Assembly: GCF_000421565.1 (NCBI RefSeq)
Contig: NZ_ATXG01000001.1
Span: 372,001 to 436,000, forward strand
Source: Agromyces subbeticus DSM 16689
Lineage (GTDB): Bacteria > Actinomycetota > Actinomycetes > Actinomycetales > Microbacteriaceae
Reading direction: 5' to 3'
Length of the DNA: 64,000 nucleotides
This document shows, piece by piece, positions 46,140 to 62,324 of the stretch. Every line of letters begins with the position of its first letter. Within the stretch, counting starts at the first letter, position 1. The notes under the pieces are model-generated. The model was not told where the DNA came from and ran no database searches. It worked only from the letters and a program-made list of their open reading frames with translations. Both the position numbers and the translations under genes were made by a program.

Positions 46140-48344
46140 TCAGCAGCCGATCGCGGGATGCGCCGCCGTGACCGTCATCGATCGGCTCGGGTCGGCGGCA
46201 TCGGTGCCCGAGACCGTGACCGACCCTGCACCGATCGTTCTCGTGCGGGTCGAGAACGCCGCGCTGCTCGACGCGCCGGCCTCGAGCGCGAACGACTTCG
46301 AGCCGTAGGTGCCGGCCGCGGTCACGTCGAGGGCGACCACGTCGGCATTGCGCACCGTGGCCACCACGACGGCCTTGCCGGCGACGCAGCGCGCCGTGGC
46401 CGTGGCCTCGAGTGCCGGTGTCGCGACCGGGTCGGTCGCGACCGAGGCGATGCGGTAGCGCTGGCAGTCGTTGTTCAGCACGCTGTACTGGTGGATGCGG
46501 GTGCCGTCGGCTGCAGCGCAGAACGAGAGGTCGAGCGCCTTCAGGCTCGTGCCGTTGCGGAACTCGACGGTGCCGTCGTTGCCGACGAGCACTCGCCACG
46601 TGCTGCCCGCGATGGCGCACGCGCCCTGCGTGACCGCCACGCTGTCGGCCGTCGACCCGCCGGCCACGGCGAGGCACTTCTCGGGCGCTGAGGCGAGGTG
46701 CAGCTCGGCCTCGCCGTTCGCGGCAGCGGTGAAGCTGACGCTCTGGCAGGGCGCAGCGAGGTACTCCCGCTGCTGCAGGATGGCGCCGTCGGCCGTCGAG
46801 CACCCGGGCAGGTCGAACGACTTGCCAGAGACGATCGAGGTGACCACGACCTGGCCCGCGGGGCGCAGCGCCCAGTCCTGCCCGGCCGAGGCGTTCACCG
46901 TCGACTGCACGAGCGCGACGCCGGTCGCCTCGCCGGCCGCCGCGCCCGCGTCGAGCACCTTGCCGCTCGTGCGGTTCGTGAGCTTCGACCAGCCGCCGGT
47001 CGTCGAAGCGACGGCCCACTGCTGGCATCCCGTGGTGAGGAACGGGGTCTGCACCACCGCCGCGCTCTCGGCAGTCGAGCACTCGACCGGCCCCAACGAT
47101 TCGCCGCTCACCGCGTTCACGACCCGCAGGTAACCGTCGCCGGTGGTGTCGAGCACGAAGCGAGCACGTGACGAGGAGCAGTCGCCCTGCGCGACGGCAG
47201 CACCGGCTGCATCGCTCGGTGCCGTGGCGCAGAGCCCCGTGCTGCGGCTGACGAGGTTCCACCTGGCACCTTCCACCTGGGCGGTGATCGGCGCGTTCTC
47301 GCCACTCGGCACCTGCACCTGCGTGCTGGTCGCCTGCGGGATACCGAAGTCGGGCTCACCGTCGGCGCCCCAGTTCACGATCTGCGCACGGGCCGAGCGT
47401 TCGCGACTGCATCCGCCGTTCGGTCGGTTGTTGGCGTGGTAGAGATTCCACGTCTCGGTGCCGTCGGGCGAGGTGAAGAAGTCGTTGTGACCCGTGCCGT
47501 AGACGCCGTTCGCCTTCGAGAACACCGGCCCGTCGCTCTTCCGCCACGAGGTCGACAGCACGGGGTCGCCGCCGAGGTACTCGAGCGTGCCGAGCTGGTA
47601 GTCCTCGGTGCCGCAGAAGCTCGCCGAGTAGACGATCCAGGTCTTCCCATCCTTCTGCAGGGGAATCGGGCCCTCGTTCACCGGTTGGCCGATGACCTCC
47701 CACGGCTCGGTCGGCTGCGACAGGATATTGAGCGGCCCGGTCGCCGACCACGGCGTCGTCATGCGTGCGATGTAGTTGCTCTGCAAGCCGTCGGGCGCGA
47801 ACGCCGACCAGGTCACGAAGAGCTCGCCGTTCAGCTCCAGGTACGCGCCGTCGATGTTCCAGTCGTCGGTCGGAATCGGTCGGCCCTTGTAGGTGTACGG
47901 GCCCATCGGGTCATCCGCTGCGCTCTCGATCACCTGCAGGTGCTGCGTGCCGAAATTGCCGGAGACGCCCATCGTGTACATCAGGTACCAGCGCCAGCCG
48001 TTCGGCCCTTCGATGCGCTCGAGCTCGGGAGCCCACATGTTGCCGTTGCGGCCGGCGTTGGTGTCGGAGTAGACCGTCACCGGCTTGGTCGTGCCGAGGC
48101 CCGCGAGCGTCGGCGCCTTGCGCATGACGACCTTGTTGTCCCACGTCGTCGCCACCATGTAGTAGTTGCCGTCGTGGAACTCGATCGTCGGATCGGCCGT
48201 GTCGGGCGCCAGGGGATTGGTGAAGGTGTCCTCCCCGATCGCCTGAGCGGCCGGGGCCTGTGCGGCGTCGATGGCGGTGAGGCCGCCGAACGCGAGCGCG
48301 GCGACCAGCGCCGCGCGCATCACGGTTCGAAACGGTCTCAGCAT
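46140..48344 (-). CDS. Secreted GH43 glycosidase with ricin-type lectin repeats and shared C-terminal domain
   Basis: Secreted protein of 734 residues. It has a signal peptide (about 1-36), a GH43 five-bladed propeller (about 40-345), ricin-type beta-trefoil repeats (about 360-640) with several QxW-like ends, and the shared domain from ARCVAGK (last 86 residues). The GH43 residues can be placed as Asp51 (TADPTIEF), Asp165 (WNIDGAYLE) and Glu224 (PVNEGPIPL), with spacing normal for the family. The activity is probably alpha-L-arabinofuranosidase/arabinanase or beta-xylosidase. Its ATG lies inside the end of the preceding gene (ATGCTGA overlap), so the two are translationally coupled. Confidence 0.88.
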   Translation of the reverse strand: MLRPFRTVMRAALVAALAFGGLTAIDAAQAPAAQAIGEDTFTNPLAPDTADPTIEFHDGNYYMVATTWDNKVVMRKAPTLAGLGTTKPVTVYSDTNAGRNGNMWAPELERIEGPNGWRWYLMYTMGVSGNFGTQHLQVIESAADDPMGPYTYKGRPIPTDDWNIDGAYLELNGELFVTWSAFAPDGLQSNYIARMTTPWSATGPLNILSQPTEPWEVIGQPVNEGPIPLQKDGKTWIVYSASFCGTEDYQLGTLEYLGGDPVLSTSWRKSDGPVFSKANGVYGTGHNDFFTSPDGTETWNLYHANNRPNGGCSRERSARAQIVNWGADGEPDFGIPQATSTQVQVPSGENAPITAQVEGARWNLVSRSTGLCATAPSDAAGAAVAQGDCSSSRARFVLDTTGDGYLRVVNAVSGESLGPVECSTAESAAVVQTPFLTTGCQQWAVASTTGGWSKLTNRTSGKVLDAGAAAGEATGVALVQSTVNASAGQDWALRPAGQVVVTSIVSGKSFDLPGCSTADGAILQQREYLAAPCQSVSFTAAANGEAELHLASAPEKCLAVAGGSTADSVAVTQGACAIAGSTWRVLVGNDGTVEFRNGTSLKALDLSFCAAADGTRIHQYSVLNNDCQRYRIASVATDPVATPALEATATARCVAGKAVVVATVRNADVVALDVTAAGTYGSKSFALEAGASSSAAFSTRTRTIGAGSVTVSGTDAADPSRSMTVTAAHPAIGC

Positions 48345-51229
48345 GAGCGGCCTCCGTACGCAGCCGTGGTGATGGCGCCGTCGGCCGCCGTCGAGACCTC
48401 ACCGGCGGCCACCGTCGCGAGACGGCTCGAGAACGTCGCCGACTGGCTCGAGCCCGCCGCGATCGTCACGACGCGCTCGCCGAAGGGCGTGCTGATCGTG
48501 ACGCTCGACGCCTGGGTCGACTGGTTGGTGGCCTTGGCGACGATGACGACCTTGCCGGCCACGCACCGGGTCGAGGCCGCCACGTCGATGCCGGGCGCGA
48601 CGATCACGGTCGCCGCCACCGGCATCCGCGAATCGTCGTGCGCGACGCCGCGCACCGTGAAGGTGCCTGGCGCTTCGTAGTCGGCGGGCGAGACGCCCTC
48701 CCACGTGACGTCGACTTGCTCGGTGGTGCCGTCGATCATGGTGAGCGAAGCACCGGGAAGCACCGGTGCCTGGCCGGGGCGCGTGGTCACCTCGATAGGG
48801 GCGACCTCGGCGACCGCGACCGCGGGAGCGTAGGCCTCGAGCACCGTCTGGTACTCGGCCCTGGTCACCGGGATCACGGTGCCGTGACGCGGCTTGCCGC
48901 CGTCGCTGTTCTGCGGCAGGTGCTCGCGCAGCGTGGCGCCCAGTGGCTGCCACGACGAGCCGTCGGCGATGTCGTTCGAGCCGAACGGGATGTAGTAGTT
49001 CGGGCCGCCGTGATACGAGGGCTGGTCGATGAACAGGAACCAGTCGAGGCCGTTCACGTCACCGGGGTTCGCGGCGAAGATGCTCGGCCCCTCGCCGCTC
49101 GAGTACGTGCCGCCCGGCTCGCCGTTGGGCAGGCCGGTCGCGATCTGCTCCTTGATGAGCGTCCACTCGTCGTCGGCGCCCGTGGTGCCGGGCAGCGAGC
49201 CGCTGATCGTCGCGAGCAGGTCGGTCGACTTCTCCTCACGGATCGTCATGGACGCCTCGTCTTTCGTGAAGCGGTAGTAGGTGTCGTCGACCTTCGCGAC
49301 CGTCGAGTCGATCAGGCCGCGGCCGGTTCCCCGCTTCACGTCCGACCAGATCTGAGGCTCCGAGAAGGTCACGAAGTCGTCGGTCGTGGCGTACATCATG
49401 CGGTTGTAGGTGACGGCGGTGCGTGCAGCCGCGTCGGTGCCCGGGTAGAGGTTCGACGCCCAGAACACCACGTAGCGGCCGAGCTCGTCGTCCCAGTACG
49501 CCTCGGGCGCCCAGGTGTTGCCCGCGTAGGGCGTCGAGACCTGCACGTGCCGCTGATCCGACCAGTTCACGAGGTCGGTCGACTCCCACACCTCGATGCC
49601 GAGCGAGCCCGAGATCTGCGCCGTCGTGAAGCCGCCGGGCAGGCCGGCGACCTTCAGGTCGGTGGCGAGCATGTAGAACTTGTCGCCCTCGTGCGAGCGG
49701 ATGATGAACGGGTCGCGCAGCCCGCTCGTGCCCTGCGTCGAGGTGAAGATGGGCTCGCCGTCGTTCAGCGTGTTCCAGCGCAACGCATCGTTGCCCTTGG
49801 ATGCCGCGAGGCTGACCCGCTCGGCACCGGCGCCCTCGCCCGTGAAGAAGGCCCAGACATAGGCCTCGGGGTCGGCCGCGTCTGCCGGCGCCGCCGGCAC
49901 GGTGAGCGTGAAGCTGCGCGAGGCGGTCGCGTCGCCGCTCGTCGCGGTCGCGGTGAGCACGACGTCGGATGCCGCGGCGGGACGCGTGATCGCGATGGTC
50001 GCGGTGCCCGTCTTGACGCCGTCGCGGAGCGCCGCGATGCCATCGCCCGAGGTGACGGCCCACGAGATGGTCGAGCCGTTCGCTCCGGTCGTCGGAACCG
50101 CGAAGCTCGTGCGCACGTCGGCGGCTCCGGGAATGGCGAGGGCCGCAGCATCCGCGTCGACCTTCGCCTGGTCGGAGAGTTGCGCTGGCACCGTCACGGT
50201 GTAGCTGCGGGTCGCCGTCGCGCTCCCTGCGGTGAAGCCGGCCGTCAAGGTGACCACGGCGTCCGCCGAGCCGCCCGCCGGGCGGGTGACCGTCGCCGTT
50301 CCGCCCGACACGGCGATCGCGGCACCGTCTGACGCCCACGAGACGGATGCGCCGTGGCTCGTCGTCGGCAGGGCGAAGTCGGCCGTCGCGCTCGCCGGAG
50401 GCGACACCGCCGCGGTCGCGCGCTCGATCGCCTGGTCGGCGAACACCTGCTGCACGGTCGTCGCGTCGAGCGCTTCGGCGTACACGGCGAAGTCGTCGAT
50501 GTCACCGGCCCAGCCCGGGTCGTTGTAGGTCGAGCGACCGAGGTACGACGCCAGGCTGGTGCCGAACGATGACACGTCGCGCGCGATCGTGTGCTGGCCG
50601 ATCTGCTGGCCGTTGACGTACACCGTGAGCTTCGCGTTCACGCCGTCGATGACGGTCGTGTAGAGCGCCATGCCCGACGGCGTGCGTGCGCCGGTCGTCG
50701 CGGTGTTCGTCGCACCGGGGCCGACCTCGGTGCCCCAGGGGGCGCCCGCGTTGACCGTGTTCGTCACGACCGACTTCACGTAGCCGCTCGGGTTCGTCGG
50801 GTTCAGCATCCAGTAGGCGCTCGAGTACGAGGCTCCCGACGCGACCGGCGCGCCGATGAACGCGGCCCCGACGTTCGCCGGGCCCGAGCGGTTGCTGAGC
50901 CAGGTCGAGATCGTGAGCTGCTTCTTGCCGACGAGCCCGGCAGTCGGGATCTCGACGTAGGCGGCGCTCGCCCGCGCACCACCGGGAAGTGACAGGGCGC
51001 CGGCGGCGACCGTGGCGCCGCTCTGCTTGATGACGCCGTCGTAGCCGTTGCCCGACGCATCGCCGACGACACCGCCGGCGGCGGCATCGAAGGTGTAGTG
51101 GATCAGCGGGGCGGGCGCCTCGATGGCACCGGCGGCCTGCGGGGCGATGGTGCCCGCAACCGCGAGGGCGGCGACGGCCGCAGCAGCTGCGGCCCCCGTT
51201 CGCAGCTTTCGCACGAGGATGTCGCGCAT
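48338..51229 (-). CDS. Secreted multidomain GH43 protein (LamG, Ig-like, GH43, shared C-terminal domain)
   Basis: Secreted protein of 963 residues. The parts are a signal peptide (to about 35), a LamG/concanavalin-like domain (about 41-270), two Ig-like modules ending in RSYTVTVPA and RSFTLTVPA (about 275-350 and 352-446), GH43 (about 455-800), a Big_4-like module (about 815-880) and the RCVAGK domain (last 79 residues). Likely catalytic residues are Asp506 (GLRDPF), Asp641 (LIDSTV) and Glu713 (SGEGPSIF), plus NTWAPEAYWDD. CGAAGGAGTGAC precedes the ATG. The target is probably an arabinose-containing polysaccharide, judged by the neighbouring beta-L-arabinofuranosidase. It is separated from the upstream GH43 gene by a terminator and repeats. 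Confidence 0.88.
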   Translation of the reverse strand: MRDILVRKLRTGAAAAAAVAALAVAGTIAPQAAGAIEAPAPLIHYTFDAAAGGVVGDASGNGYDGVIKQSGATVAAGALSLPGGARASAAYVEIPTAGLVGKKQLTISTWLSNRSGPANVGAAFIGAPVASGASYSSAYWMLNPTNPSGYVKSVVTNTVNAGAPWGTEVGPGATNTATTGARTPSGMALYTTVIDGVNAKLTVYVNGQQIGQHTIARDVSSFGTSLASYLGRSTYNDPGWAGDIDDFAVYAEALDATTVQQVFADQAIERATAAVSPPASATADFALPTTSHGASVSWASDGAAIAVSGGTATVTRPAGGSADAVVTLTAGFTAGSATATRSYTVTVPAQLSDQAKVDADAAALAIPGAADVRTSFAVPTTGANGSTISWAVTSGDGIAALRDGVKTGTATIAITRPAAASDVVLTATATSGDATASRSFTLTVPAAPADAADPEAYVWAFFTGEGAGAERVSLAASKGNDALRWNTLNDGEPIFTSTQGTSGLRDPFIIRSHEGDKFYMLATDLKVAGLPGGFTTAQISGSLGIEVWESTDLVNWSDQRHVQVSTPYAGNTWAPEAYWDDELGRYVVFWASNLYPGTDAAARTAVTYNRMMYATTDDFVTFSEPQIWSDVKRGTGRGLIDSTVAKVDDTYYRFTKDEASMTIREEKSTDLLATISGSLPGTTGADDEWTLIKEQIATGLPNGEPGGTYSSGEGPSIFAANPGDVNGLDWFLFIDQPSYHGGPNYYIPFGSNDIADGSSWQPLGATLREHLPQNSDGGKPRHGTVIPVTRAEYQTVLEAYAPAVAVAEVAPIEVTTRPGQAPVLPGASLTMIDGTTEQVDVTWEGVSPADYEAPGTFTVRGVAHDDSRMPVAATVIVAPGIDVAASTRCVAGKVVIVAKATNQSTQASSVTISTPFGERVVTIAAGSSQSATFSSRLATVAAGEVSTAADGAITTAAYGGRSC

Positions 51230-51261
51230 GTCACTCCTTCGTGATGGTCGAACCGTTTGCC

Positions 51262-51300
51262 GGTCGAAACGTGGTGGTCGAAACGTGGTGGTCGGAACGG
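51262..51300. repeat. Tandem 14-bp repeats upstream of the 48338-51229 gene
   Basis: GGTCGAAACGTGGT occurs exactly at 51262-51275 and 51276-51289. A partial third copy, GGTCGGAACGG, follows at 51290-51300, and a related ATGGTCGAACCG lies upstream (51244-51255). They occupy the untranslated leader or promoter of the GH43 gene, next to the hairpin of the preceding gene. Confidence 0.6.
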
Positions 51301-51341
51301 CGAATCGGATGCCTCGGCACGCCGCCGAGGCATCCGATTCG
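51301..51341 (-). terminator. Terminator after the 51343-54312 GH43 gene
   Basis: CGAATCGGATGCCTCGGC (51301-51318) pairs perfectly over 18 bp with 51324-51341 around a 5-nt loop, immediately after the stop codon of the upstream gene on the minus strand. It would separate that gene from the next GH43 gene or let only part of the transcripts through. Confidence 0.8.
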
Positions 51342-51342
51342 T

Positions 51343-54312
51343 TCAGCCGCAGTTGGCGGGCGGGGTACTGAACGAACCCTCGAAGGCGCTGCCGTCGGCG
51401 GTGCTGCCGGTCAGCGTGAGCGAGCCCGCGGCGATCGACGCCGCTCGGGTCGCGAACGCGGCCGAGGCGGAGCCGCCGGCGGCGATCGAGACGCTCTTGC
51501 CGCCGTACAGGGTCTGGATCGCGACCGCGGCTCGCTGGTCGTCGGCGTTCTGCACCGTGACCACGAGCTGCACCTTGCCGGCGACGCAGCGAGTCGTCGC
51601 CGTGGCGTCGAGCTCGAGGCCGCCGTGCAGGTCGACGGACTCCGACGTGGAGGTGGCCACGAGCGCGTCACGGTAGCCGTCGTAGGTCGCGGTGACCGAC
51701 GCGACCCCTGCGGGTGCGGTGACGGTCGCCGTGCCGTTCTGCAGCGACACCGTGGTGCTCCAGTCGCCGCCCGAGAACGTCACCGTGCCGGCGATGTCGC
51801 CGTCGTCGGCGGCGGTCACTTCGGCCGTGACGTCACGGCCGTCGGCGGTCAGCTGCGTGGTCGACGCGACGGCGGTGATGCCGGTCCAGTCGTGCATGGC
51901 CGTGAGCACCGTCTGCGGCACGCTCACGAACGCGCCGTGCCGCGGGCTCGCCGGCAGTCCGCCGACCGGGCGCACGTTCCAGTTCGAGCGCTGCGAGATC
52001 CGGTCGCTCTGCGAACTCGAGGCGATCTCGGCGCCCGTCGTCGCGAAGGCGCGGTAGCCGCCGGCACCGTAGTTGTCGACGAGGAAGACGTAGCCGTCGC
52101 CCGAGACGTTGTTCGGGTCGCCCTCGTTGAGCTTCACGATCTCGGGCCCTTCGCCGGCCTGACCGGTCTCGAGGCTCGTCATGCGGGTGTCGGTGAGCTG
52201 CCACGTCGTGGCGGGGTCGGCGCTCCAGCTCGACGAGGTCGTCGGTGCGGTGAGCACCTTCGAACGCTCGAGGAAGATGTCCTTGCCGGCCTCGAGCGTG
52301 CCTGCGGCACCGCCCTCCTCGTTCTTCGTGAAGCGGTAGTAGTAGTCGTCGATCTTGGTGACCGTCGAGTCGATGCGGGCGTACCCCGTGTCCTGCCACG
52401 TCGCGGGCGGCGAGGTGAAGGTCCTGAAATCGCGCGTGAGCACCGAGAACATGCGGGCGTAGAGCTTGTCGGTGTTGGTGTGCGAGGCATCCGAATAGAG
52501 GCGCGACGCGAAGAACACGACGTACGACTGCAGCTCGTCGTCCCAGTACGCCTCGGGCGCCCAGGTCATGCCGGCTTCGGGCTGGTTGACCGTGATGCCG
52601 GTGTCGATGCCGTTCGTGCGCGTCCAGTGCACGAGGTCGACCGACTCCCAGACCTCGATCTTCAGGCTGCCGGCGGATTGGGCCGGGCCCCAGCCCGTGC
52701 CGCAGCCGATGCAGAGGTCGGTGGCGACCATGTAGTACTTGTCGCCGTCGTGCGATCGCAGGATGAACGGATCGCGCAGTCCCTTGGTGTCGGTGGTCGA
52801 CGTGATCACCGCTGCGCCGCCGTTGACCGGCGAGAACGTGAAGAAGTCGTTGCCCGAGGTCGCGGCCTGGTAGATCTTCTCGTCGCCGTCGGACTTGAAG
52901 TAGGCGGCGGCGTAGCCGGCGTCGGGCGCCGAGCGTGCATGTTCAGCGACCGCGACGGTGAACGACTTCTCGACGGCGGACTCGCCGAGCACCGCGTGCG
53001 CGGTGAGCGTGACCTCGCGATCGCCGTCGCCGTAGGCGGGACGCTCGACGAGGCCGCCGCCCTCGAACGGGTCGGGGGCGCCGACCGCGGGAGCGGTGTA
53101 GCCGGTGTCGGTCGGCGTGACCAGCGCGGGGTCGGAAGACGTCCACGTGATGGTCGCGCCGTTGACCGAACCGGTCGTGACGAGCGGCAGGTTCTCGGTC
53201 GTGCGGGCCGCGAGCGAGATCGCCTCGAGGTCGGCCGACGCCGAGGCGGCGAGCACGGTGAGGTCGAAGGAGATCGTGGTGCCGAGCGAGGTCGTGGCCG
53301 TGACGGTCACCGGGGTGTCGGCGGTGACGGCGCGCGAGACGACGCCGGTGTTCGAGATCACCGAACTGTCGCTCGAGGCCCAGCTCAGCGTGACGCCGTT
53401 GACGGATGCCGGCAGCGAGAGGTTCTGCGAGACGGCATCGGCCGACGGGTTGCCCGCGAGCACGGTCGGCAGCAGGTCGGCGCGCAGCATCGCGTCGGTC
53501 GTGGCCGACTTCGCCGCCGCCGTCGGCATGCTCTCGGATACCTGCGCCTGGCTCAGGGCGACGTCCCAGAACTTCACGTCGGTGACGTCGGCCTGCAGCA
53601 TCGGGTCGGGGGCGTAGAGCGAGCGGCCGAGGTAGCCGAGCGTCGTGCCGGCCGGCACGATCGAGCTCATGGCGTACGAGTGGGTGACCGTCGAGGCCTG
53701 CACGCCGTCGCGGTAGAGCGTGATGGTGTTGCCGCTGCCCACGAGGGTCAGCGTGGTGAAGCCCGGGTTGAGTCCGCCGCCGTTCGGCAGGCGCACCTCG
53801 CCGTTGCTCGTGCCGGTCTTCACCCGGATTCCCGAGAGCACTGCGCTGGCGTAGGAAGACTCGCTCGAGCGCGGGTTGACGAACACGTGGTTGCCGAGCG
53901 CGGTGGTGTTCCATGCGCCGACGCCGTCACCGATCACCCAGCCGAACTGGTTGCCGGCGGTCTGGCTCGAGACGGTGTACTCGACGGTGAAGTCGTTGTC
54001 GGCTGCGGTCACGAGACCCTTGGGCAGCGCGGCGTAGCCGTTCTTCTTGAACCGGAGCACGGCGTCGCCACCGGCATCGGCGAACGAGGCGTCGGTGAGG
54101 CCGGTGAGTGCCGCGTTGCGACCGTTGCCCGAGATGTCGAGCAGTGCGCCGCCCGCGTGCGACATGTCGTAGTGAGCGGTGACGGGGGGCAGCTCGGCGG
54201 CCGACGCGGAGAGCGGAGCCGTGGCGCACAGGCCGGCGACCACGGCGCCGGTGAGGCCCGCGGCGAGCAGTCGTCGCGCACGAGTTGGGGGGAGAGCGGC
54301 AGACGGGCGCAT
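51343..54312 (-). CDS. Secreted multidomain GH43 protein (LamG, Ig-like, GH43, shared C-terminal domain)
   Basis: Secreted protein of 989 residues from ATG 54312, preferred over 54333 because AAGGAG lies 4 nt upstream. It has a signal peptide, a LamG-like domain (TAHYDMSHAGGALLDISGNG onward), two bacterial Ig-like modules (VTLSWASSDSSVISNTGVVS and ATITWTSSDPALVTPTD), GH43 with GLRDPFILRS, ARIDSTVTKIDD and AGEGPEIV as the catalytic Asp, Asp and Glu regions, another Ig-like module and the RCVAGK domain (last 85 residues). It is paralogous to its neighbours but well diverged. It is divergent from the 54540 gene, with LacI-type palindromes between them. Confidence 0.88.
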   Translation of the reverse strand: MRPSAALPPTRARRLLAAGLTGAVVAGLCATAPLSASAAELPPVTAHYDMSHAGGALLDISGNGRNAALTGLTDASFADAGGDAVLRFKKNGYAALPKGLVTAADNDFTVEYTVSSQTAGNQFGWVIGDGVGAWNTTALGNHVFVNPRSSESSYASAVLSGIRVKTGTSNGEVRLPNGGGLNPGFTTLTLVGSGNTITLYRDGVQASTVTHSYAMSSIVPAGTTLGYLGRSLYAPDPMLQADVTDVKFWDVALSQAQVSESMPTAAAKSATTDAMLRADLLPTVLAGNPSADAVSQNLSLPASVNGVTLSWASSDSSVISNTGVVSRAVTADTPVTVTATTSLGTTISFDLTVLAASASADLEAISLAARTTENLPLVTTGSVNGATITWTSSDPALVTPTDTGYTAPAVGAPDPFEGGGLVERPAYGDGDREVTLTAHAVLGESAVEKSFTVAVAEHARSAPDAGYAAAYFKSDGDEKIYQAATSGNDFFTFSPVNGGAAVITSTTDTKGLRDPFILRSHDGDKYYMVATDLCIGCGTGWGPAQSAGSLKIEVWESVDLVHWTRTNGIDTGITVNQPEAGMTWAPEAYWDDELQSYVVFFASRLYSDASHTNTDKLYARMFSVLTRDFRTFTSPPATWQDTGYARIDSTVTKIDDYYYRFTKNEEGGAAGTLEAGKDIFLERSKVLTAPTTSSSWSADPATTWQLTDTRMTSLETGQAGEGPEIVKLNEGDPNNVSGDGYVFLVDNYGAGGYRAFATTGAEIASSSQSDRISQRSNWNVRPVGGLPASPRHGAFVSVPQTVLTAMHDWTGITAVASTTQLTADGRDVTAEVTAADDGDIAGTVTFSGGDWSTTVSLQNGTATVTAPAGVASVTATYDGYRDALVATSTSESVDLHGGLELDATATTRCVAGKVQLVVTVQNADDQRAAVAIQTLYGGKSVSIAAGGSASAAFATRAASIAAGSLTLTGSTADGSAFEGSFSTPPANCG

Positions 54313-54370
54313 GGGTCTCCTTGCAGTCGCCATTGACGGGGGCCCGACGATGTTCGTCGGATCGCCAGAA

Positions 54371-54384
54371 TGTTACCGGACACA
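54371..54384. promoter_or_regulatory. LacI-type operator, site 1 (GH43 divergent promoter)
   Basis: TGTTACCGGACACA is an imperfect palindrome matching TGTTACCGGTAACA at 11 of 14 positions. It is 59 bp upstream of the minus-strand GH43 start and 99 bp, centre to centre, from site 2. Confidence 0.55.
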
Positions 54385-54469
54385 TTGCCGGAATAACAAG
54401 GATCGGTGACGAAGTGCCCGTCTGCCGAAATCTTCTGGCGACACTTCTCGACTGTGTGCTACGGTCTGG

Positions 54470-54483
54470 CGTTACCGGTAACA
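54470..54483. promoter_or_regulatory. LacI-type operator, site 2, at the promoter of the 54540 GH43 gene
   Basis: GTTACCGGTAAC (54471-54482) is a perfect 12-bp palindrome with the central CG step typical of LacI-family sites. It starts a few bases after a -10-like TACGGT (54460-54465), the same geometry as at 61516-61542. A repressor bound here would block initiation. Confidence 0.75.
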
Positions 54484-54539
54484 ATGCGAGTATCGCCGGT
54501 TCGCCCCGCCACCGAAGTCGTAGGCCCGAGGAGCTGTCA

Positions 54540-57245
54540 ATGTCGACGCACGCCGCCACCGTCCGCGCGTTCCGCGGCACCGCGATCGCCCTCGGCGCCG
54601 CACTCCTGGCGGGCGCCGCCGCAGCAGGCCCGCTGGTGCCAACCGCGGCCAGCGCCGCTCCGAACACTGCGCCGAATGCCGCCCCCGCCGACGCCCCGCG
54701 CGACGGCCTGCTGGCCGAGTACCTCTTCACCCAGACCACGGGCAGTGCCGTGCCGAACACGGCCGGCGCTGCGTCGCCGCTCGGGCCGGCCACGGTCGTC
54801 AACGGCAGCGACGCCCTCTGGACGGGATCCTCACTGCGCTTCACCGGCGGCGCCAAGACCAGCACGGCCGACTGGGTGCGCCTGCCCGACGCGCTGCTCG
54901 CCGGGGAGCAGTCGGCCACGATCACCGTCGAGACGAAGTTCGACGCCTCGATGGCCTCGAACTGGCACTTCCTCTGGAACATCGGCAGCGACAGCACGAG
55001 CTCGTACTACTTCGCGACACTGAAAGACCCGGCGCGCACTGCGATCACGACTGCGAGCAATGGGGGAGAGGCCAACGCCCGCACCACCTCGCCGCTCGTG
55101 CCCGACCGCTGGTACAGCGTCACCTCGGTGATCGACGGCGCTGCCGACACGATCTCGTTCTACATCGACGGGGTGCGCGTGGGGCAGACGGCCACCGCAC
55201 TGACCCCGGCCTCGATCACCGACCAGACCGTCAACGCGATCGGCCGCTCGCCGTGGCCCGACGGGTTCTACAAGGGCGAGGTGTCGACGTTCCGGGCGTA
55301 CGACCGCGCGCTGTCGGCAGCCGAGGTGGCCGCGGTGTCCGACGCCGACAGCAGTCTGCACGCCTCGTCGTTCCAAGCGAGCGCGCAGGCGTCGCTCGAC
55401 TCGATCCAGCCGATCGACATGTCGGATTCCTCCATCACCCTGCCCACCGCCAACGGGGCGACGCTCAGTTGGTCGAACCCCTCAGACGGTCTCGCGCTCG
55501 GCTCGGCCGGTACGACGCTCCAGGCCGTGCAGCCGGCACCCGGCTCGTCCGAGCTGACCGGCACGGTGACCGCGACGGCCACCGTGCGCGGAGTGAGCGT
55601 GTCGAAGGAGATTCCCGTGACGGTGGCTCCCGCGGCCGCGGCGGGCGATGACTACGGCTACCTGATGGTGCACTTCATCGAGGACTCGGCCGGCTATGCC
55701 GAGAAGATCTACCTCGACGTTTCACGCGGCGACGACCCCGAGCAGTGGGACCCGCTGAACGGCGGCGAGCCGATCCTCGCGTCGCAACTCGGCACCACCG
55801 GGATCCGCGACCCGTACCTCACTCGCAACCCCGAAACCGGCACGTACTACATCATCGCGACCGACCTGCGGGTCTTCGGCGGCGACGGCGGTGCCGGCGC
55901 GTGCACGAGCTGGTGCCACTGGACGACCAAGGGCAGCACGAAGCTGCTCGTCTGGGAGTCCACCGATCTCGTGAGCTGGGGCGAGCCGCGCAGCCTCGAC
56001 GTCTCACTCGACGCGAACGGCGGCGAGGTCGCCGAACTCGGCATGGCCTGGGCGCCAGAGGCGACCTGGGTCGACGACTACTTCCCCGACGGCCGCGGCG
56101 CCTTCGTCATGTACTGGTCGTCGAACCTCTACGAGAACCCCGAGCACACCGGCGCGAGCCACAACGAGGTGCTGTGGGGGGCCACGACCGACTTCACGCA
56201 AGGCACCTACGCCTACGGTGGGTCGTTCATCGACACCGGCGCGAACGCCATCGACACCACGATGATCCAGAACGACGGCACCACCTACCGCATCACGAAA
56301 GACAACGGCCTCGGCAACGGCATCTACATGGAGTCCACGACCGCCGAGCGCTGGTGGGAACCGGGCACCGCGTGGACCCAGCTGCAGTCGAGGATCGGCG
56401 CGGCCTGGGCCGGCGGCAACGCCGGCGGCGTCGAGGGCCCTGCGGTCTTCAAGAGCCACAGCGACGAGCGCTGGTACCTCTACGTCGACGTCATCCCGTC
56501 GACCGGATACCGCCCGATGACCACGACGAACCTCGATGCGGGCTGGAGCCAGCTGAACGACCCCTCGTTCTTCATGGCCCCGAGCACCAAGCACGGCGGC
56601 GTGATCTCGCTCACCAAGGCGCAGTACGACACCGTTCGGTCAGCGGATGCCGCGGCCGCCGTGTCATCCGACCTCGGCTCGATCGAGGTCGACGCCGGCA
56701 GCGATCCGAACGAACTGGCCGGCGCGCTGCCGGCGACCGCCGACGTCGTGCTCGCCTACGACCGGGGCACCGCGGCGCGGCCGGTCACGTGGAACGAGGC
56801 ATCCGTCGATCTCGACACCCCGGGCACCTACCCGATCACCGGAACGGTGAGCACGTACTCCGCCAACCTCGACACGTGGGTCGGCGCCGGCGGTTCGAGT
56901 GCCTGGAACGCGCCCGACCGGGTGCTCTCGAGCAGTGCGGCGATCACCGTGAACGCGACCGTGGTCGTGACCGCGCCAGCGGGCCCGTCGTTCACCGTAT
57001 TGGCCGACACCCGCTGCGTCGCGGGCAAGGTCGTGCTCGTCGCCAAGGCCGCGAACACCGGCGAGACCGCTGCCGAGATCGCGATCGTCACCCCATACGG
57101 CTCGAAGACGGTGCAGCTCGATGCCGGTGCCGGCAAGAGCCTGACGTTCTCATCGCGCCTCGCCTCCATTTCGGCGGGCAACGTCGAAGCAACCTCCGCC
57201 GGCGGCACGCAGTCGGCCGCGTTCGCGGCGCGCACCTGCAACTGA
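54540..57245 (+). CDS. Secreted multidomain GH43 protein (LamG, Ig-like, GH43, shared C-terminal domain)
   Basis: Secreted protein of 901 residues from ATG 54540 with GAGGAG 6 nt upstream. It has a signal peptide (to about 40), a LamG domain (LLAEYLFTQTTGSAVPNTAG to about 265), an Ig-like module, GH43 with TTGIRDPYLTRN, AIDTTMIQNDGTTYRITKD and GGVEGPAVF holding the likely catalytic Asp, Asp and Glu, a Big_4-like module and the RCVAGK domain (last 80 residues, 57003-57242). It is probably an arabinan- or arabinoxylan-active exo/endo enzyme; the precise activity cannot be set by eye. It is cotranscribed with the GH127-like gene 36 bp downstream. Confidence 0.88.
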   Translation: MSTHAATVRAFRGTAIALGAALLAGAAAAGPLVPTAASAAPNTAPNAAPADAPRDGLLAEYLFTQTTGSAVPNTAGAASPLGPATVVNGSDALWTGSSLRFTGGAKTSTADWVRLPDALLAGEQSATITVETKFDASMASNWHFLWNIGSDSTSSYYFATLKDPARTAITTASNGGEANARTTSPLVPDRWYSVTSVIDGAADTISFYIDGVRVGQTATALTPASITDQTVNAIGRSPWPDGFYKGEVSTFRAYDRALSAAEVAAVSDADSSLHASSFQASAQASLDSIQPIDMSDSSITLPTANGATLSWSNPSDGLALGSAGTTLQAVQPAPGSSELTGTVTATATVRGVSVSKEIPVTVAPAAAAGDDYGYLMVHFIEDSAGYAEKIYLDVSRGDDPEQWDPLNGGEPILASQLGTTGIRDPYLTRNPETGTYYIIATDLRVFGGDGGAGACTSWCHWTTKGSTKLLVWESTDLVSWGEPRSLDVSLDANGGEVAELGMAWAPEATWVDDYFPDGRGAFVMYWSSNLYENPEHTGASHNEVLWGATTDFTQGTYAYGGSFIDTGANAIDTTMIQNDGTTYRITKDNGLGNGIYMESTTAERWWEPGTAWTQLQSRIGAAWAGGNAGGVEGPAVFKSHSDERWYLYVDVIPSTGYRPMTTTNLDAGWSQLNDPSFFMAPSTKHGGVISLTKAQYDTVRSADAAAAVSSDLGSIEVDAGSDPNELAGALPATADVVLAYDRGTAARPVTWNEASVDLDTPGTYPITGTVSTYSANLDTWVGAGGSSAWNAPDRVLSSSAAITVNATVVVTAPAGPSFTVLADTRCVAGKVVLVAKAANTGETAAEIAIVTPYGSKTVQLDAGAGKSLTFSSRLASISAGNVEATSAGGTQSAAFAARTCN

Positions 57246-57281
57246 CCTCCCTTCCCTTCTCCGCACTCCAAAAGGACTCCC

Positions 57282-60200
57282 ATGTCGAAATCGGCTCGCA
57301 CCACCGCCATCGCGGCGATCGCCGCCGTCGGCGCGCTCTTCGGCGGCCTCGTCACGGCGACGATGCCCGCTGCCGCCGCAACGGGTGAACTCAGCATCGA
57401 GGCATCCAAGGTGCTCGAGCTGAACTTCGACGGCGACCTCGCCGACTCGAGCGCCAACGCCGCGAACGTCGGCCTGCAGAAGGGCGTCGCCGGCTACGCC
57501 GACGGCATCGACGGCCAGGCGTTCTCGTTCAACGGTGCCACGGCGCTGAACCTCGGAACGGCGTCGTACCTGCAGCCGCAGGACCTCACCGTCTCGTACT
57601 GGTACAACCCGAGCGCCGCGATGAGCGGCGAGCAGACCTTCGCCTGGAGCAAGACGACGTACAACTCCGACGGCTGGTATCTCACCTCCGAGAACGCCAC
57701 GACGCCGCTCGCGCTGTCGATCGGTCCCTCGGCCGGTCAGCCCTACAAGGTCGCGGTCGAGGCCGACCGTGCGGCCTTCTTCCCGCCCGGCCAATGGACC
57801 CACGTCGTGGCGAGCTACGACCACGAGAGCAAGGCCGTGGCGTTCTACCGCAACGGAATCCGCCAGCCCGCGATCGTGAAGATTCCGGTGAGCGCGACCG
57901 CTTCGGGCGTGCTCGGCGCCGAGAGCACGAGCACGAAGACCATCGGCTACAACGGCCCGACCTACAACGGTTCGCACGTGAGGGGCCTGCTCGACGACTA
58001 CGCACTGTTCGACGGGGTCGCCACCGTCGCCGACGTCGTGACGCTCACCCAACGAGGCACCCCCGGCTTCGACCCGGCGACCGTCGCGCGCGGCGATCTC
58101 GACGCGATCATCCTCCCCGAGAGCGCTGCCGTCGACTTCTCGGTGCCGACCGCCGGCGCCGGTGGCAGCGAGATCACCTGGACCTCCTCCGACGATTCGG
58201 TCATCTCGATCGACGACGATATGGCGCGAGTCACCCGCCCCGACGGCGCGGCGGCCCCGGTGCGCCTCAGCGCCAGCGCGAGCTACGGCGGCAGCGCGGA
58301 GGTCACTCGCGACTTCGACCTCGTGGTGCAACCCGCCGGCGAGACATCCACCGAGTACCTCGCGGACGCCGGCCTCGAGAACGTGACGCTCGCCGACGAC
58401 TACCTCCTGAACGCGAACCAGAAGACCATCGACTACCTGCTGAGCCTCGACCCCGAGAAATTCCTCTACTCCTGGTACCTGCAGGCCGGACTCACTCCGA
58501 CGACCGCGACCGGGTACGGCGGGTGGGAGCGCTCGACCGGCGCCCGCTTCCAGGGCCACTTCTTCGGCCACTACCTCTCCTCCCTGTCGCAGGCCTATGC
58601 GACCACGACGGATGCCTCGGTCAAGTCGCAGCTGCTCGCGAAGCTCACTGCAGCGGTCGAAGGCCTCGAGCGCTGTCAGGATGCCTGGGCGGCCGCCGAT
58701 CCCTCCAGTGCCGGGTACGTCGCGCCGTTCCCGCTGAACGCGCTTCCGAGCGGCCGCGACGGGCTGCTCGTGCCGTTCTACAACCTGCACAAGGTGCTCG
58801 CAGGCCTCATCGACGCGCACGAGCAGGCCCCGGCCGAGGTGTCGGCGAAGGCCCTCTCCGTGGCGTCCGGCTTCGGCTCGTGGGTGAAGAACTACGCGGC
58901 ATCGCTCTCGAACCCCGCCGTCATTCTCAACACCGAGTACGGCGGCATGAACGAGGCGCTCTACGAGCTCTTCAGCATCACGAGGAGCCCCGACCACAAG
59001 CGCGCGGCCGAGTACTTCGACGAGGTGCCGCTCTTCCAGGCGCTCGCGAACGGTCAGGACGTGTTGAACGGCAAGCACGCCAACACGACCATTCCGAAGC
59101 TCGTCGGCGCACTCAAGCGCTACACGCTCTTCATGGACGACGAAGAGCTCTACGCGACGCTCACGCAAGCCGAGAAGGACGCGCTGCCGATGTACCGCAC
59201 GGCGGCCGAGAACTTCTGGCAGATCGTGATCGACGACCACACCTACGCCAACGGTGCGAACAGTCACTCCGAGCACTTCCACGGCGCAGACACGCTGTAC
59301 CAGTTCGCGACCAACGGCGTCACGTCGGGCTACGGCGAGAACTCCACCGCCGAGGGCTGCAACGAGTACAACATGCTGAAGCTCAGCCATGCCCTGTTCG
59401 CGGTGACGAAAGACGTGAAGTACGCCGACTACTACGAGTCGACGTTCATCAACACGATCCTCGCCTCGCAGAGTCCAGAGACGGGCATGGTCACCTACTT
59501 CCAGCCGCAGACCTCGGGCTACGCGAAGATTTTCGGCACTCCGCTCGACCAGTTCTGGTGCGACCACGGCACGGGTGTCGAGAGCTTCACGAAGCTCGGC
59601 GACTCGATCTACTTCACCGACCCGACGGCGGTGTACGTGAATCAGTTCCGCAGTTCGGAGCTGCGCTCGGCGGCGCAGAACCTGCGCCTCACGCAGACGG
59701 CCGACGTGCCGGCGAGCCCGACCGTGCGGCTGACGGTCGCGGCCCTCGACGGCGGGGCGGTCGCGGCCGGCACCGTGCTGAAGCTGCGCGTGCCGAGCTG
59801 GGTCGCCTCGGCCCCGACGCTGACGGTCAACGGCGAGGTGACGGATGCCTCCGCCCTCACGAGCGACGGCTACATCACGCTGCCCGTCGCCGGCGGTGAC
59901 GAGATCGAGTACTCGCTGCCGGCGAAGGTCACCGTCGACGACGGCACCGAGAACCCGAACTGGGTCGCCTTCAAGTACGGCCCGGTGCTGCTCGCGACCG
60001 AACTCAGCCGCAGCAACGTCGACGCCAGCTACACCGCCGGCGTGCTCGTGCAGATGGGCGTCGCCGACAAGTCGCTGAGCTCCAACGTCGTCGTGGCCGA
60101 CGCGGCCGCGTGGAAGGCGAACGCCGAGACGAACATCGAGCGCATCGCCGACGGCGTGAACGCGAACGGCATGACCACCATGCGGTTCAAGCTGCACGGG

Positions 60201-61439
60201 GTCGACGCGACCTCGGCAGCCCTCACCTTCGAGCCGTACTACAGCCTCTACGACGCCCGCTACGCGACCTATATGACGCTCGTGCAGCCCGACTCGGCCG
60301 AAGCGCAGGCGCTGATCCTCAAGCACAAGCAGCAGTTGCGCGTCGACGAGACGACGATCGACTCGCTCACCTCGTTCGACGACAACAACAGCGAGGCCGA
60401 CAAGAACTACGCGTTCTCGAACTCGACCGTCGGCGTGTTCAACGGCAACAGCTTCCGGCATGCGCCGCCCGCCGCCGGGGCGTTCTTCCAGTACGACATG
60501 ATCGTCGACCCCTCGCAGCCCGCGAACTACCTGGCCGCCAGGTACTACGGCGGCGACAACGGGCGAACCTTCGACGTGTACCTCAACGACGTGCTGCTGA
60601 AGCACGAGCGGGTGACGAACGCCGGCGGAGCGACGAGCTGGTACCTCCAGTACGACGAGATCCCGCAGGCGATCCTCGACGGCATCGAGGCCGAAGACAG
60701 CTACAAGCGCGACCAGTCGGGCGAGTACGCGCTGGATGCCGCGGGGCAGAAGATCCCCATCGTGACGGTGCGGTTCCAGAGCAACGGCACGAGCTACGTG
60801 GGCGGACTGTTCGGCCTGCACACCTCGTCGACGAACCACTACGCCACGGACCCCGAGCTCTCGAAGCTCGAGGTCGCCGGCGGCACGTTGGCGCCCGCTC
60901 TGGCCGCGGGAACGCACGAGTACACGGCGACCGTGCCGCTCGACGCGACGAGCGTGCAGCTCGACGTCGACCCCGCCACCCCCAGCGGGCTCGTGTCCGT
61001 CGACGGCATCCTCATCGACGACACCGAGCCGCGCACGGTGGCGCTCGCGTCAGGGGATGCCCCGACGACCGTATCGATCGAGGCGTCCGCGCAGGACCAC
61101 ACGACGAAGGTCACCTACGCCGTGCAGATCGTGCGAGCCGCTCCGGAACCCGAGCTCGCCGTGTCGGCGGTTGCCAGCACACGGTGCGTGGCGGGCAAGG
61201 TCGTGGTGGTCGTGAAGACGACGAACGGCGCCGACGTGCCGGTGGAGGTCGTCGCGGCATCCGCTCATGGCACCGCGACCGGAACGCTCGCCGTCGGGGC
61301 CTCGGCGACGAAGGCCTTCTCGACCCGCGCCGCGTCGATCGACGCCGGTGCGGTGACGGTCACGGCGACCGCGACGGTCGACGGCGCACCGCGCTCGACG
61401 GAGATCGCGGCCGCATATGCGGCGCGCAACTGCGGCTGA
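57282..61439 (+). CDS. Secreted GH127/GH146-type beta-L-arabinofuranosidase-like protein with shared C-terminal domain
   Basis: Secreted protein of 1385 residues. It has a signal peptide (to about 33), LamG (about 40-260), an Ig-like module (about 270-350), the DUF1680/GH127 (alpha/alpha)6 barrel (about 360-960), further beta-sandwich modules and the RCVAGK domain (last 88 residues). Family landmarks are ARFQGHFFGHYL, NSHSEHFHG (Glu664), AEGCNEYNMLKL (Cys693) and QFWCDHGTGVES (Cys760). In characterised relatives zinc is held by a Glu and Cys residues that include two adjacent cysteines, one being the nucleophile. Here the second of that pair is Asp761. AAAAGGACTCCC precedes the ATG. It would release beta-L-arabinofuranose. 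Confidence 0.87.
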   Translation: MSKSARTTAIAAIAAVGALFGGLVTATMPAAAATGELSIEASKVLELNFDGDLADSSANAANVGLQKGVAGYADGIDGQAFSFNGATALNLGTASYLQPQDLTVSYWYNPSAAMSGEQTFAWSKTTYNSDGWYLTSENATTPLALSIGPSAGQPYKVAVEADRAAFFPPGQWTHVVASYDHESKAVAFYRNGIRQPAIVKIPVSATASGVLGAESTSTKTIGYNGPTYNGSHVRGLLDDYALFDGVATVADVVTLTQRGTPGFDPATVARGDLDAIILPESAAVDFSVPTAGAGGSEITWTSSDDSVISIDDDMARVTRPDGAAAPVRLSASASYGGSAEVTRDFDLVVQPAGETSTEYLADAGLENVTLADDYLLNANQKTIDYLLSLDPEKFLYSWYLQAGLTPTTATGYGGWERSTGARFQGHFFGHYLSSLSQAYATTTDASVKSQLLAKLTAAVEGLERCQDAWAAADPSSAGYVAPFPLNALPSGRDGLLVPFYNLHKVLAGLIDAHEQAPAEVSAKALSVASGFGSWVKNYAASLSNPAVILNTEYGGMNEALYELFSITRSPDHKRAAEYFDEVPLFQALANGQDVLNGKHANTTIPKLVGALKRYTLFMDDEELYATLTQAEKDALPMYRTAAENFWQIVIDDHTYANGANSHSEHFHGADTLYQFATNGVTSGYGENSTAEGCNEYNMLKLSHALFAVTKDVKYADYYESTFINTILASQSPETGMVTYFQPQTSGYAKIFGTPLDQFWCDHGTGVESFTKLGDSIYFTDPTAVYVNQFRSSELRSAAQNLRLTQTADVPASPTVRLTVAALDGGAVAAGTVLKLRVPSWVASAPTLTVNGEVTDASALTSDGYITLPVAGGDEIEYSLPAKVTVDDGTENPNWVAFKYGPVLLATELSRSNVDASYTAGVLVQMGVADKSLSSNVVVADAAAWKANAETNIERIADGVNANGMTTMRFKLHGVDATSAALTFEPYYSLYDARYATYMTLVQPDSAEAQALILKHKQQLRVDETTIDSLTSFDDNNSEADKNYAFSNSTVGVFNGNSFRHAPPAAGAFFQYDMIVDPSQPANYLAARYYGGDNGRTFDVYLNDVLLKHERVTNAGGATSWYLQYDEIPQAILDGIEAEDSYKRDQSGEYALDAAGQKIPIVTVRFQSNGTSYVGGLFGLHTSSTNHYATDPELSKLEVAGGTLAPALAAGTHEYTATVPLDATSVQLDVDPATPSGLVSVDGILIDDTEPRTVALASGDAPTTVSIEASAQDHTTKVTYAVQIVRAAPEPELAVSAVASTRCVAGKVVVVVKTTNGADVPVEVVAASAHGTATGTLAVGASATKAFSTRAASIDAGAVTVTATATVDGAPRSTEIAAAYAARNCG

Positions 61440-61688: not shown

Positions 61689-62324
61689 ATGATCAGCAAA
61701 GGTGCTGCACTGCGTACCGCAGCAGGAGTGCTCGGCGGGCTCATGCTCGTCGGCGTCGGAAGCGCGGCGTTCGCTGCTTACCCCGACCCCACGAGCGGAT
61801 CCGACGTCGACGTGAACGTCGACATCGCAGCCGTCGAGAACGGCGCGTTGAGCCTCACGGTCGCCGCCAACGCCACGAGCCTCGCCGAGACCGGCTCGAA
61901 CGCCTCGTACCGTCAGTTCACCGGCACGCTGCCGAACGTCACGGTCACCGACACTCGCACCGACGTGCCGGCGGGCGTGTTCTGGTACGTCACGGGCCAG
62001 GCGAGCAGCTTCGTCGGGGCGACCGGCCAGCCCGACATCACCGCCGACCACCTCGGCTGGGCGCCGGCACTCGTGAACCCGGCCAATGCCGACGACGTGG
62101 TCGAAGGCCCCGCCGTCGACACCTCGCTCGACCCCACGACGCCGAACAACGTCGGCCTCGTCGGCGAAGAGCTGCTGGCGCTCAACCTGACCGACTCGCA
62201 GGCCGCGGCCACCGCCGGCCAGTGGACCGCCAACGCCGGTCTCGTGCTGAAGACCGCGGTCGATGTCGCTCCCGGTGCCTACACCTCGACGCTGACGCTG
62301 TCGCTCTTCGAGGACGCGCTCTAA
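61689..62324 (+). CDS. Small secreted WxL-domain-like surface protein
   Basis: Secreted protein of 211 residues from ATG 61689 (GGAG 5 nt upstream), with signal peptide LRTAAGVLGGLMLVGVGSAAFAA. The mature part is a single beta-rich domain (ENGALSLTVAANATSLAE ... ITADHLGWAPALVNPA ... APGAYTSTLTLSLFEDAL) whose end resembles the PGTYTATLTW-type end of WxL domains. The Trp-x-Leu motifs themselves are only partly kept (GWAPAL). It has no anchor. It is followed after 4 bp by a DUF916-like membrane protein, the classic WxL/WxLIP pairing of Firmicutes. I infer a surface protein bound to cell wall or to the partner. Confidence 0.68.
   Translation: MISKGAALRTAAGVLGGLMLVGVGSAAFAAYPDPTSGSDVDVNVDIAAVENGALSLTVAANATSLAETGSNASYRQFTGTLPNVTVTDTRTDVPAGVFWYVTGQASSFVGATGQPDITADHLGWAPALVNPANADDVVEGPAVDTSLDPTTPNNVGLVGEELLALNLTDSQAAATAGQWTANAGLVLKTAVDVAPGAYTSTLTLSLFEDAL

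Follow-up and report, generated by a model that had tools for sequence, protein, structure and literature searches.

A C-terminal domain of secreted actinobacterial enzymes and its genomic link to a WxL/WxLIP-type surface system

The Csc/WxL surface systems of Firmicutes consist of a DUF916/WxLIP protein (CscA), a small WxL protein (CscB) and a large WxL protein (CscC), and a role in plant glycan use has been proposed for the csc clusters (PMC1534035). The commonest cluster described contains one WxLIP and two WxL proteins (PMC10599100, 2023); the same account reports binding of WxL domains to peptidoglycan and an interaction of DUF916 with WxL, with AlphaFold2 models in which an inserted DUF916 strand completes the WxL sandwich. 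One survey placed >91% of 938 WxL sequences in Firmicutes (PMC9772566). The locus analyzed here is from an actinomycete, Agromyces subbeticus DSM 16689, and begins within a 64,000-nucleotide stretch of DNA (contig NZ_ATXG01000001.1, positions 372,001–436,000 of the forward strand; hereafter the window, numbered from its first nucleotide). It encodes secreted glycosidases that end in a shared module, the RCVAGK domain, together with a small WxL-like protein and a DUF916/WxLIP-like protein.

There is strong genomic evidence that the RCVAGK domain takes part in an actinomycete surface system of the WxL/WxLIP type, and we propose, with a probability of roughly 60%, that it is a C-terminal docking tag recruiting secreted enzymes to a WxL/WxLIP surface platform. 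Like Csc, the system combines a small secreted acidic single-domain protein, a membrane-anchored DUF916 protein of 320–380 residues and a large surface protein of several domains whose C-terminus is formed by a dedicated one. Unlike Csc, it has an actinomycete host and large proteins that are mostly glycosidases, a ~90-residue, two-cysteine, immunoglobulin (Ig)-like tag replaces the WxL domain, many tagged proteins accompany each platform, and the small protein lacks a match to the Pfam WxL family (PF13731). The part proposed for the tag resembles that of dockerins in cellulosomes, but the system differs from a cellulosome: no dockerin or cohesin matches are listed, the tag is a β-sandwich and not a set of calcium-binding helix-loop-helix repeats, and in place of a multi-cohesin scaffoldin there would be a small protein together with WxLIP.

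The RCVAGK domain: copies, fold and cargo

Five intervals in the window each encode one homologous module (86, 79, 85, 80 and 88 residues) with a stop codon directly after it, as an earlier note made from the sequence alone had described. Copies 1–3 lie on the minus strand, which that note had missed, and the plus-strand translation of their intervals is unrelated; copies 4 and 5 lie on the plus strand. The features of the locus are as follows.

46140..48344, minus: secreted GH43 enzyme with ricin-type lectin domains, 734 residues (Pfam and tag alignment)
46143..46400, minus: RCVAGK C-terminal tag, copy 1 (nine-copy alignment and profile search, as for copies 2–5)
48338..51229, minus: secreted GH43-like enzyme with LamG, two aBig_2, sub-threshold GH43 and Big_4, 963 residues (Pfam/NCBIfam)
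48341..48577, minus: RCVAGK C-terminal tag, copy 2
51343..54333, minus: secreted GH43-like enzyme with LamG, two aBig_2 and sub-threshold GH43, 996 residues (Pfam/NCBIfam)
51346..51600, minus: RCVAGK C-terminal tag, copy 3
54540..57245, plus: secreted arabinofuranosidase-like enzyme with LamG and Big_4 (likely ATG at 54540, frame open from 54285)
57003..57242, plus: RCVAGK C-terminal tag, copy 4
57282..61439, plus: secreted GH127 enzyme with LamG, aBig_2, GH127 catalytic and middle domains, DUF6805 and Cadherin-like, 1385 residues (Pfam)
61173..61436, plus: RCVAGK C-terminal tag, copy 5
61689..62324, plus: small WxL-like secreted protein, signal peptide and one ~180-residue acidic β domain (family profile A3)
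62329..63387, plus: DUF916/WxLIP-like membrane-anchored protein (PF06030)
63503..64000, plus: start of a sixth tagged GH43-like enzyme (likely ATG at 63503; the gene runs to 65725 in window numbering, and its tag is outside the window)

The run of five described earlier is thus part of a longer series of nine tagged glycosidases: these five, the sixth and three more, the last of which ends 12.9 kb past the window. The 3′ end of the 48338..51229 gene overlaps the start of the 46140..48344 gene by 7 bases. The earlier assignment of four GH43 enzymes and one GH127 enzyme is broadly correct. GH127 is clear (263.8 bits, Pfam) and GH43 exceeds the Pfam cut-off in one protein (P0005), but two others score below it (29.7 and 23.5 against 32.2 bits), and in the fourth the sole sign of it is a partial NCBIfam arabinofuranosidase match that stays under the cut-off.

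Alignment of the nine copies from the locus gives 11 invariant columns, including R-C, A-G, N and the final C. A profile built from them (A1) has 17 matches in the genome with E values from 1.6e-34 to 3.8e-5, which excludes chance. Eight of these matches are outside the locus, some on contig 1 and some on other contigs; a contig end truncates one of the eight, and another is a distant match. Contig C31 of this genome ends within the tag of a ThuA-type protein (L288) and contig C14 begins within a small WxL gene (L289). Exact stretches of 95 and 200 bases from the C31 and C14 ends recur in contig C16 (L087), and therefore a near-identical duplicated tag and small-WxL segment probably broke the assembly.

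The ~90-residue C-terminal domain is real and widespread, and no curated Pfam or NCBIfam family covers it. The whole tagged proteins of the window gave no Pfam or NCBIfam match across the tag, and the nine isolated copies gave scattered noise only. Among 64 copies the commonest weak match was PLipase_C_C (PF05506; five copies, best E 0.011), a fimbrial NCBIfam model matched four (best E 4e-4), and the best single match was one copy to Big_3_5 (PF16640, general bacterial Ig; E 9.1e-6), so that no Ig-like or other family reaches more than five copies and the earlier view that the module belongs to no named family holds. PLipase_C_C, Big_3_5 and other bacterial Ig-like families have a similar size and Ig-like strand pattern; we know of none with the cysteine pair and the RCVAGK start. 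No earlier account of the literal string RCVAGK or of the domain as described was found in the literature searched, a scope outside which subscription journals and preprints lie.

Three described C-terminal elements were rejected as identities for the tag. A WxL domain (PF13731) has 160–190 residues and two Trp-x-Leu motifs, whereas the tag has ~90 residues, no Trp in 147/158 copies and no listed PF13731 match. No dockerin Pfam match is listed, and the model described below is all-β. A sortase-anchored protein would end in LPXTG, a hydrophobic stretch and a basic tail, but 191 of 196 copies themselves end the protein.

The last figure comes from 296 sequences that contained 196 distinct copies; these are the copies in fetched sequence, and many tag matches from the 356-genome search described below are not among them. 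Of the 191 C-terminal copies, 188 reach to within five residues of the stop; in the other three a longer final part leaves 9–19 residues after the copy. The strict C-terminal location suggested earlier is therefore what the profile search found, with internal copies a small minority and carbohydrate-binding matches at noise level, and because the domain ends at the stop no LPXTG signal can follow it, again in line with the earlier note. No tagged enzyme frame examined has two tags.

Among C-terminal copies, 176 have both cysteines, 14 have neither and none has one (a count that leaves out one 5′-truncated copy and the five internal matches). Where one cysteine is present so is the other, the pattern expected from a disulfide joining the two ends of the domain, and a single disulfide likely staples it. 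An AlphaFold2 model from a 64-row alignment has seven strands (predicted local distance difference test score 98.2, predicted template modeling score 0.86), and structure comparison points to an Ig-like arrangement of the sandwich; model and cysteine pattern both support the small disulfide-closed β-sandwich foreseen in the earlier note. Conserved profile positions in 158 copies are R/K 6, C7, K/R 11, N20, Y/F 34, G35, K/R 37, F52, R/K 55 and C89. Cysteine-less tags otherwise keep the pattern and the C-terminal position (L026, L049, L053, L065, L074:5382-5645, L089, L108, L109 and L110).

The domain is present on a broad set of proteins. There were 140 long tagged frames, of which 129 were scanned against Pfam as sets of 54, 46 and 29; the family lists hold the best 25 of 44, 39 and 32 families, respectively. 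GH43 is the commonest catalytic family, with 25, 16 and 7 members in the three sets. Other tagged glycosidases belong to GH127, GH95, GH123, GH62, GH59, GH92, GH20, GH10, GH3 and GH101, and further tagged enzymes include CE2, PNGase A, 3-keto-disaccharide hydrolase, PhoD-like phosphatase, subtilase S8 and a 5′-nucleotidase/endonuclease-like protein. Tagged frames also contain binding domains of their own: LamG (35/129), CBM6 (20/129), CBM35, CBM4_9 and F5/8C. Because it is common to many unrelated catalytic families, the tag is not substrate-specific.

A frame of ~1540 residues in two related genomes (L286:632-5251 in G636 and L287 in G678) has an ECF (extracytoplasmic function) sigma-like start followed by extracytoplasmic Ig-like repeats, as judged by eye. 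Three of the repeats resemble the RCVAGK domain without cysteines, and the protein may be a substrate-sensing regulator.

Linkage to small WxL-like and DUF916/WxLIP-like genes

The small WxL-like gene and the DUF916/WxLIP-like gene of the window separate the GH127 gene from the sixth tagged gene. The earlier note had not recognized the small gene, which is flanked by the enzyme gene and the DUF916 gene, as WxL-like. Its product is called WxL-like because distant matches of the A3 profile share the published layout of large WxL plus WxLIP (PMC10599100, PMC9772566): these lower-scoring matches are C-terminal domains of larger frames, most of which have a DUF916 gene next to them downstream. In the window protein, which has no literal WxL motifs, the conserved Trp motifs are W-Y-V and L-G-W. 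Among solved structures, the model of the small WxL-like protein is closest to FimA-type pilin subunits (Foldseek E 1.3e-4), which would fit donor-strand completion by DUF916. The product of 62329..63387 matches PF06030 with 27.9 bits in six-frame translation (cut-off 27.3) and 25.5 bits as a protein, with relatives over the cut-off; by eye it has a signal-like start and a hydrophobic helix near its end.

Small WxL-like matches were divided into close (E<1e-40) and distant at a line picked after the match list had been seen. Forty-nine of the 50 listed close matches form the set of close loci; the 50th (L289) begins at the contig start and is outside it. In 38/49 close loci a tag match ends 53–476 bp upstream of the small-WxL match on the same strand, and in 38/49 a DUF916 gene follows. 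When the eight loci that seeded the profile are removed, a tag is directly upstream in 30/41 close loci as against 0/31 distant WxL-like matches (Fisher p 2e-11). The 31 distant matches, in 30 loci, include two borderline ones (E 1e-39), and moving these to the close group gives 38/51; DUF916 is downstream in 28 of the 31. The distant group draws on 29 control loci (L203–L231) that were hand-picked from the list and not random, one of which gave no WxL-like match in the locus scan. A large protein with a C-terminal WxL domain was rejected as the usual upstream partner in the close loci, since in 38/49 the upstream gene is RCVAGK-tagged instead.

A set of named genomes gave 15 adjacent listed tags for 21 small-WxL matches, or at least 11/16 after removal of three seeds and of two Microbacterium gallinarum matches with the same coordinates as G757. 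Seven genomes gave just one tag match alongside a close small WxL, and each places them no more than 4 kb apart, next to each other in five cases and on opposite strands in two; four of these genomes were fully scored (G003, G004, G005 and G022) and three were not (G598, G633 and G655, with G633 and G655 72–73% complete). The order tag-tag-small WxL-DUF916 recurs in Herbidospora.

Linkage is mirrored in genome content. The tag was found in 50/356 genomes of the order, representing 19/105 genera; in a phylum-wide sample searched with a narrower profile it was rare (7/396 genomes). Named hosts include Microbacterium, Rathayibacter, Oerskovia, Promicromonospora, Saccharothrix and Herbidospora. 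Oerskovia flava is tag-rich with 36 matches, as are G636 (29) and G678 (30) after internal repeats are set aside. Per-genome copy numbers from the phylum and order searches are lower bounds, since the best 13 candidates were scored in the phylum sample, the best 14 for tags in the order and the best 8 for small WxL. Co-occurrence with DUF916, a check proposed in the earlier note, was borne out: PF06030 is matched in 37/50 tag-positive genomes and 30/306 others. A close small WxL is present in 26/356 genomes, of which all 26 have PF06030 and 25 have the tag, compared with a tag in 25/330 others (p 2e-23); counted by genus, 9/10 with a close small WxL have the tag (p 3e-7). The median number of tag copies is at least 1 in tag-positive genomes without a close small WxL and at least 6 in those with one (best 14 candidates scored), yet G636 and G678, which have no close small WxL, rank with the genomes that have most tags. 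L183 (G485) is from the sole genome of the 26 that has a close small WxL and DUF916 pair and no detected tag.

The control loci L203–L231 appear to encode classical large-WxL and DUF916 pairs in actinomycetes with no RCVAGK tag nearby. An actinobacterial classical WxL system is little described in the literature searched; one paper found there on WxL in Actinomycetota concerns metal-binding domains whose neighbors include DUF916.

Docking and alternative explanations

In the proposed mechanism, secreted enzymes of many kinds would be exported, each with one tag copy at its very end. The Ig-like tag, with its probable disulfide staple and four conserved basic residues, would bind the acidic small WxL protein or the WxL/WxLIP complex. 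The platform would be the small, very acidic WxL-like protein (61689–62324) held by the membrane-anchored DUF916/WxLIP-like protein (62329–63387), and would be seated on peptidoglycan if the published behavior of the Firmicutes proteins carries over. One such pair would serve many tagged enzymes of the genome and give a surface-bound, multi-enzyme, glycan-degrading coat. The tag would thereby play, for many enzymes, the role that the C-terminal WxL domain has in the large WxL protein of Firmicutes. Direct binding between tag and platform is suggested by protein anatomy and gene linkage, and the choice of partner by charge. K/R is present at profile positions 6, 11, 37 and 55 in 84–92% of 158 copies and the median isoelectric point (pI) of the tag is 8.0 (quartiles 5.2–8.8), compared with 4.4 for the preceding 300 residues; small WxL-like proteins have a median net charge of −25. 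From these values we infer docking on the acidic small WxL or the WxL/WxLIP complex.

Several observations weigh against the docking proposal. The basicity of the tag is true of the median only, which corresponds to a net charge of +1, and the tenth-percentile pI is 4.6. No tagged gene is directly upstream in 11/49 close loci, and the line between close and distant was, as stated, chosen with the matches in view. Among the 50 tag-positive genomes, 25 have no close small WxL and 13 have no PF06030 match; two Saccharothrix genomes and one Promicromonospora have tags and no A3 match, and in the tag-rich G636 and G678 the WxL-like gene examined next to DUF916 has a borderline score (E 1e-39) and no tag beside it. 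The small protein of the window gave no match when searched against PF13731. Finally, five copies are internal; they are divergent repeats without cysteines (E 2e-5 to 3e-11), and all belong to a single protein, the ECF-like frame, in the two related genomes represented by L286 and L287.

Of the alternatives, the one that best survives, although improbable, is that the domain itself binds an anionic wall polymer or peptidoglycan and that the WxL-like pair is a separate, co-regulated surface system. The four conserved basic positions and the median pI would suit such a ligand, and some genomes have tags without the WxL pair. Wall binding nevertheless leaves unexplained why a tagged gene of any enzyme class is directly upstream of the small WxL gene in 38/49 loci.

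That the domain is a carbohydrate-binding module (CBM) is a considerably weaker candidate. The tag is mostly on glycosidases, and the Ig-like β-sandwich is a common CBM fold. Family searches, however, returned noise (CBM_35 in 2/64 copies, best E 0.065; CBM_19 in 1/9, E 7.5). Trp is present in just 11/158 copies, and there are no conserved aromatics apart from positions 34, 52 and 84. The same tag is found on enzymes from families that act on arabinan, xylan, mucin-type glycan, N-glycan and protein, many of which already contain CBM or lectin domains. A substrate-specific binding module is unlikely because the cargo is so varied; position and cargo variety support the earlier preference for a sorting, wall-binding or complex-forming tag over such a module.

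Slightly less probable again is a folding or stability cap, a protease-resistant end with no partner. The compact model, the likely disulfide closure and the nearly invariable last position would all be expected of a cap, which on the other hand predicts neither the linkage to WxL and WxLIP genes nor the conserved basic residues. Hitch-hiking would mean that the linkage reflects no more than a shared residence of tagged and WxL genes in glycan-utilization islands. Tagged genes do cluster in islands, which makes a tagged neighbor frequent, but hitch-hiking is very improbable given the direct upstream placement at 53–476 bp, the absence of an upstream tag from all 31 distant matches and the position of both genes within 4 kb of each other in 7/7 genomes with a single tag match and a close small WxL.

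The Cellulosimicrobium complex and the actinobacterial cell surface

The docking proposal invites comparison with Xyl_I of Cellulosimicrobium cellulans F16, reported as a secreted complex of at least 26 subunits in which 27 proteins were identified by mass spectrometry (PMC4562250). As described there, the subunits include glucanases, xylanases, mannases, peptidases and laccases, the genome is without cohesin and dockerin, and the authors regard the mode of assembly as still ambiguous. The key subunit, ~200 kDa in the complex, is given the order ThuA, GSDH, PKD, CBM6, PKD, and both its proteinase K-released form and the free supernatant form are reported to lack the C-terminal ~500 residues (PMC4562250). 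The end that would bear a tag is therefore the end whose loss coincides with release from Xyl_I. Unlike the proposed surface platform, Xyl_I was purified from culture supernatant and not from cells.

Proteins of similar architecture bear the tag elsewhere. Large ThuA proteins are in the same open frame as a tag in nine of 18 chosen tag-positive genomes (G000, G008, G572, G636, G678, G661, G476, G447 and Oerskovia flava G769), with frames matched by eye and the G000 tag cut by a contig end. Of the remaining nine, G757 gave no ThuA match and no tagged large ThuA frame was seen in the other eight; elsewhere, too, there are large ThuA frames for which no tag is listed. Pfam searches of three of the proteins (1894 and 2071 residues from G636, 1886 residues from G008) gave the order ThuA, GSDH, PKD, CBM6, followed by two GH43_C2/DUF1349 stretches (one of them placed) and the tag last; two of these proteins have a pair of PKD stretches, again with one of them placed. 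The small WxL gene of G008 and of G572 has the ThuA frame as its immediate upstream neighbor. By analogy, the tag is predicted to be present on F16 Xyl_I subunits. It is a tentative extension, with odds of about a third in its favor, that the RCVAGK domain is the assembly module of a third type of multi-enzyme machine for glycan breakdown, an aerobic actinobacterial hemicellulosome free of cohesin and dockerin, in which dozens of enzymes (glycosidases, esterases, peptidases and nucleases) would be docked by this one tag onto a WxL/WxLIP-type platform and of which Xyl_I would be the biochemical face.

Taken together, these results place a WxL/WxLIP-like platform in actinomycetes; Csc/WxL complexes had been described mainly from Firmicutes. 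They supply a candidate cargo rule, by which a secreted enzyme ending in the tag belongs to the platform, and which would allow a genome's surface enzymes to be predicted from sequence. The assembly of the Cellulosimicrobium hemicellulosome without cohesin and dockerin becomes a testable question. If the tag docks, it would provide a small fusion tag with which to display or join enzymes at Gram-positive surfaces.

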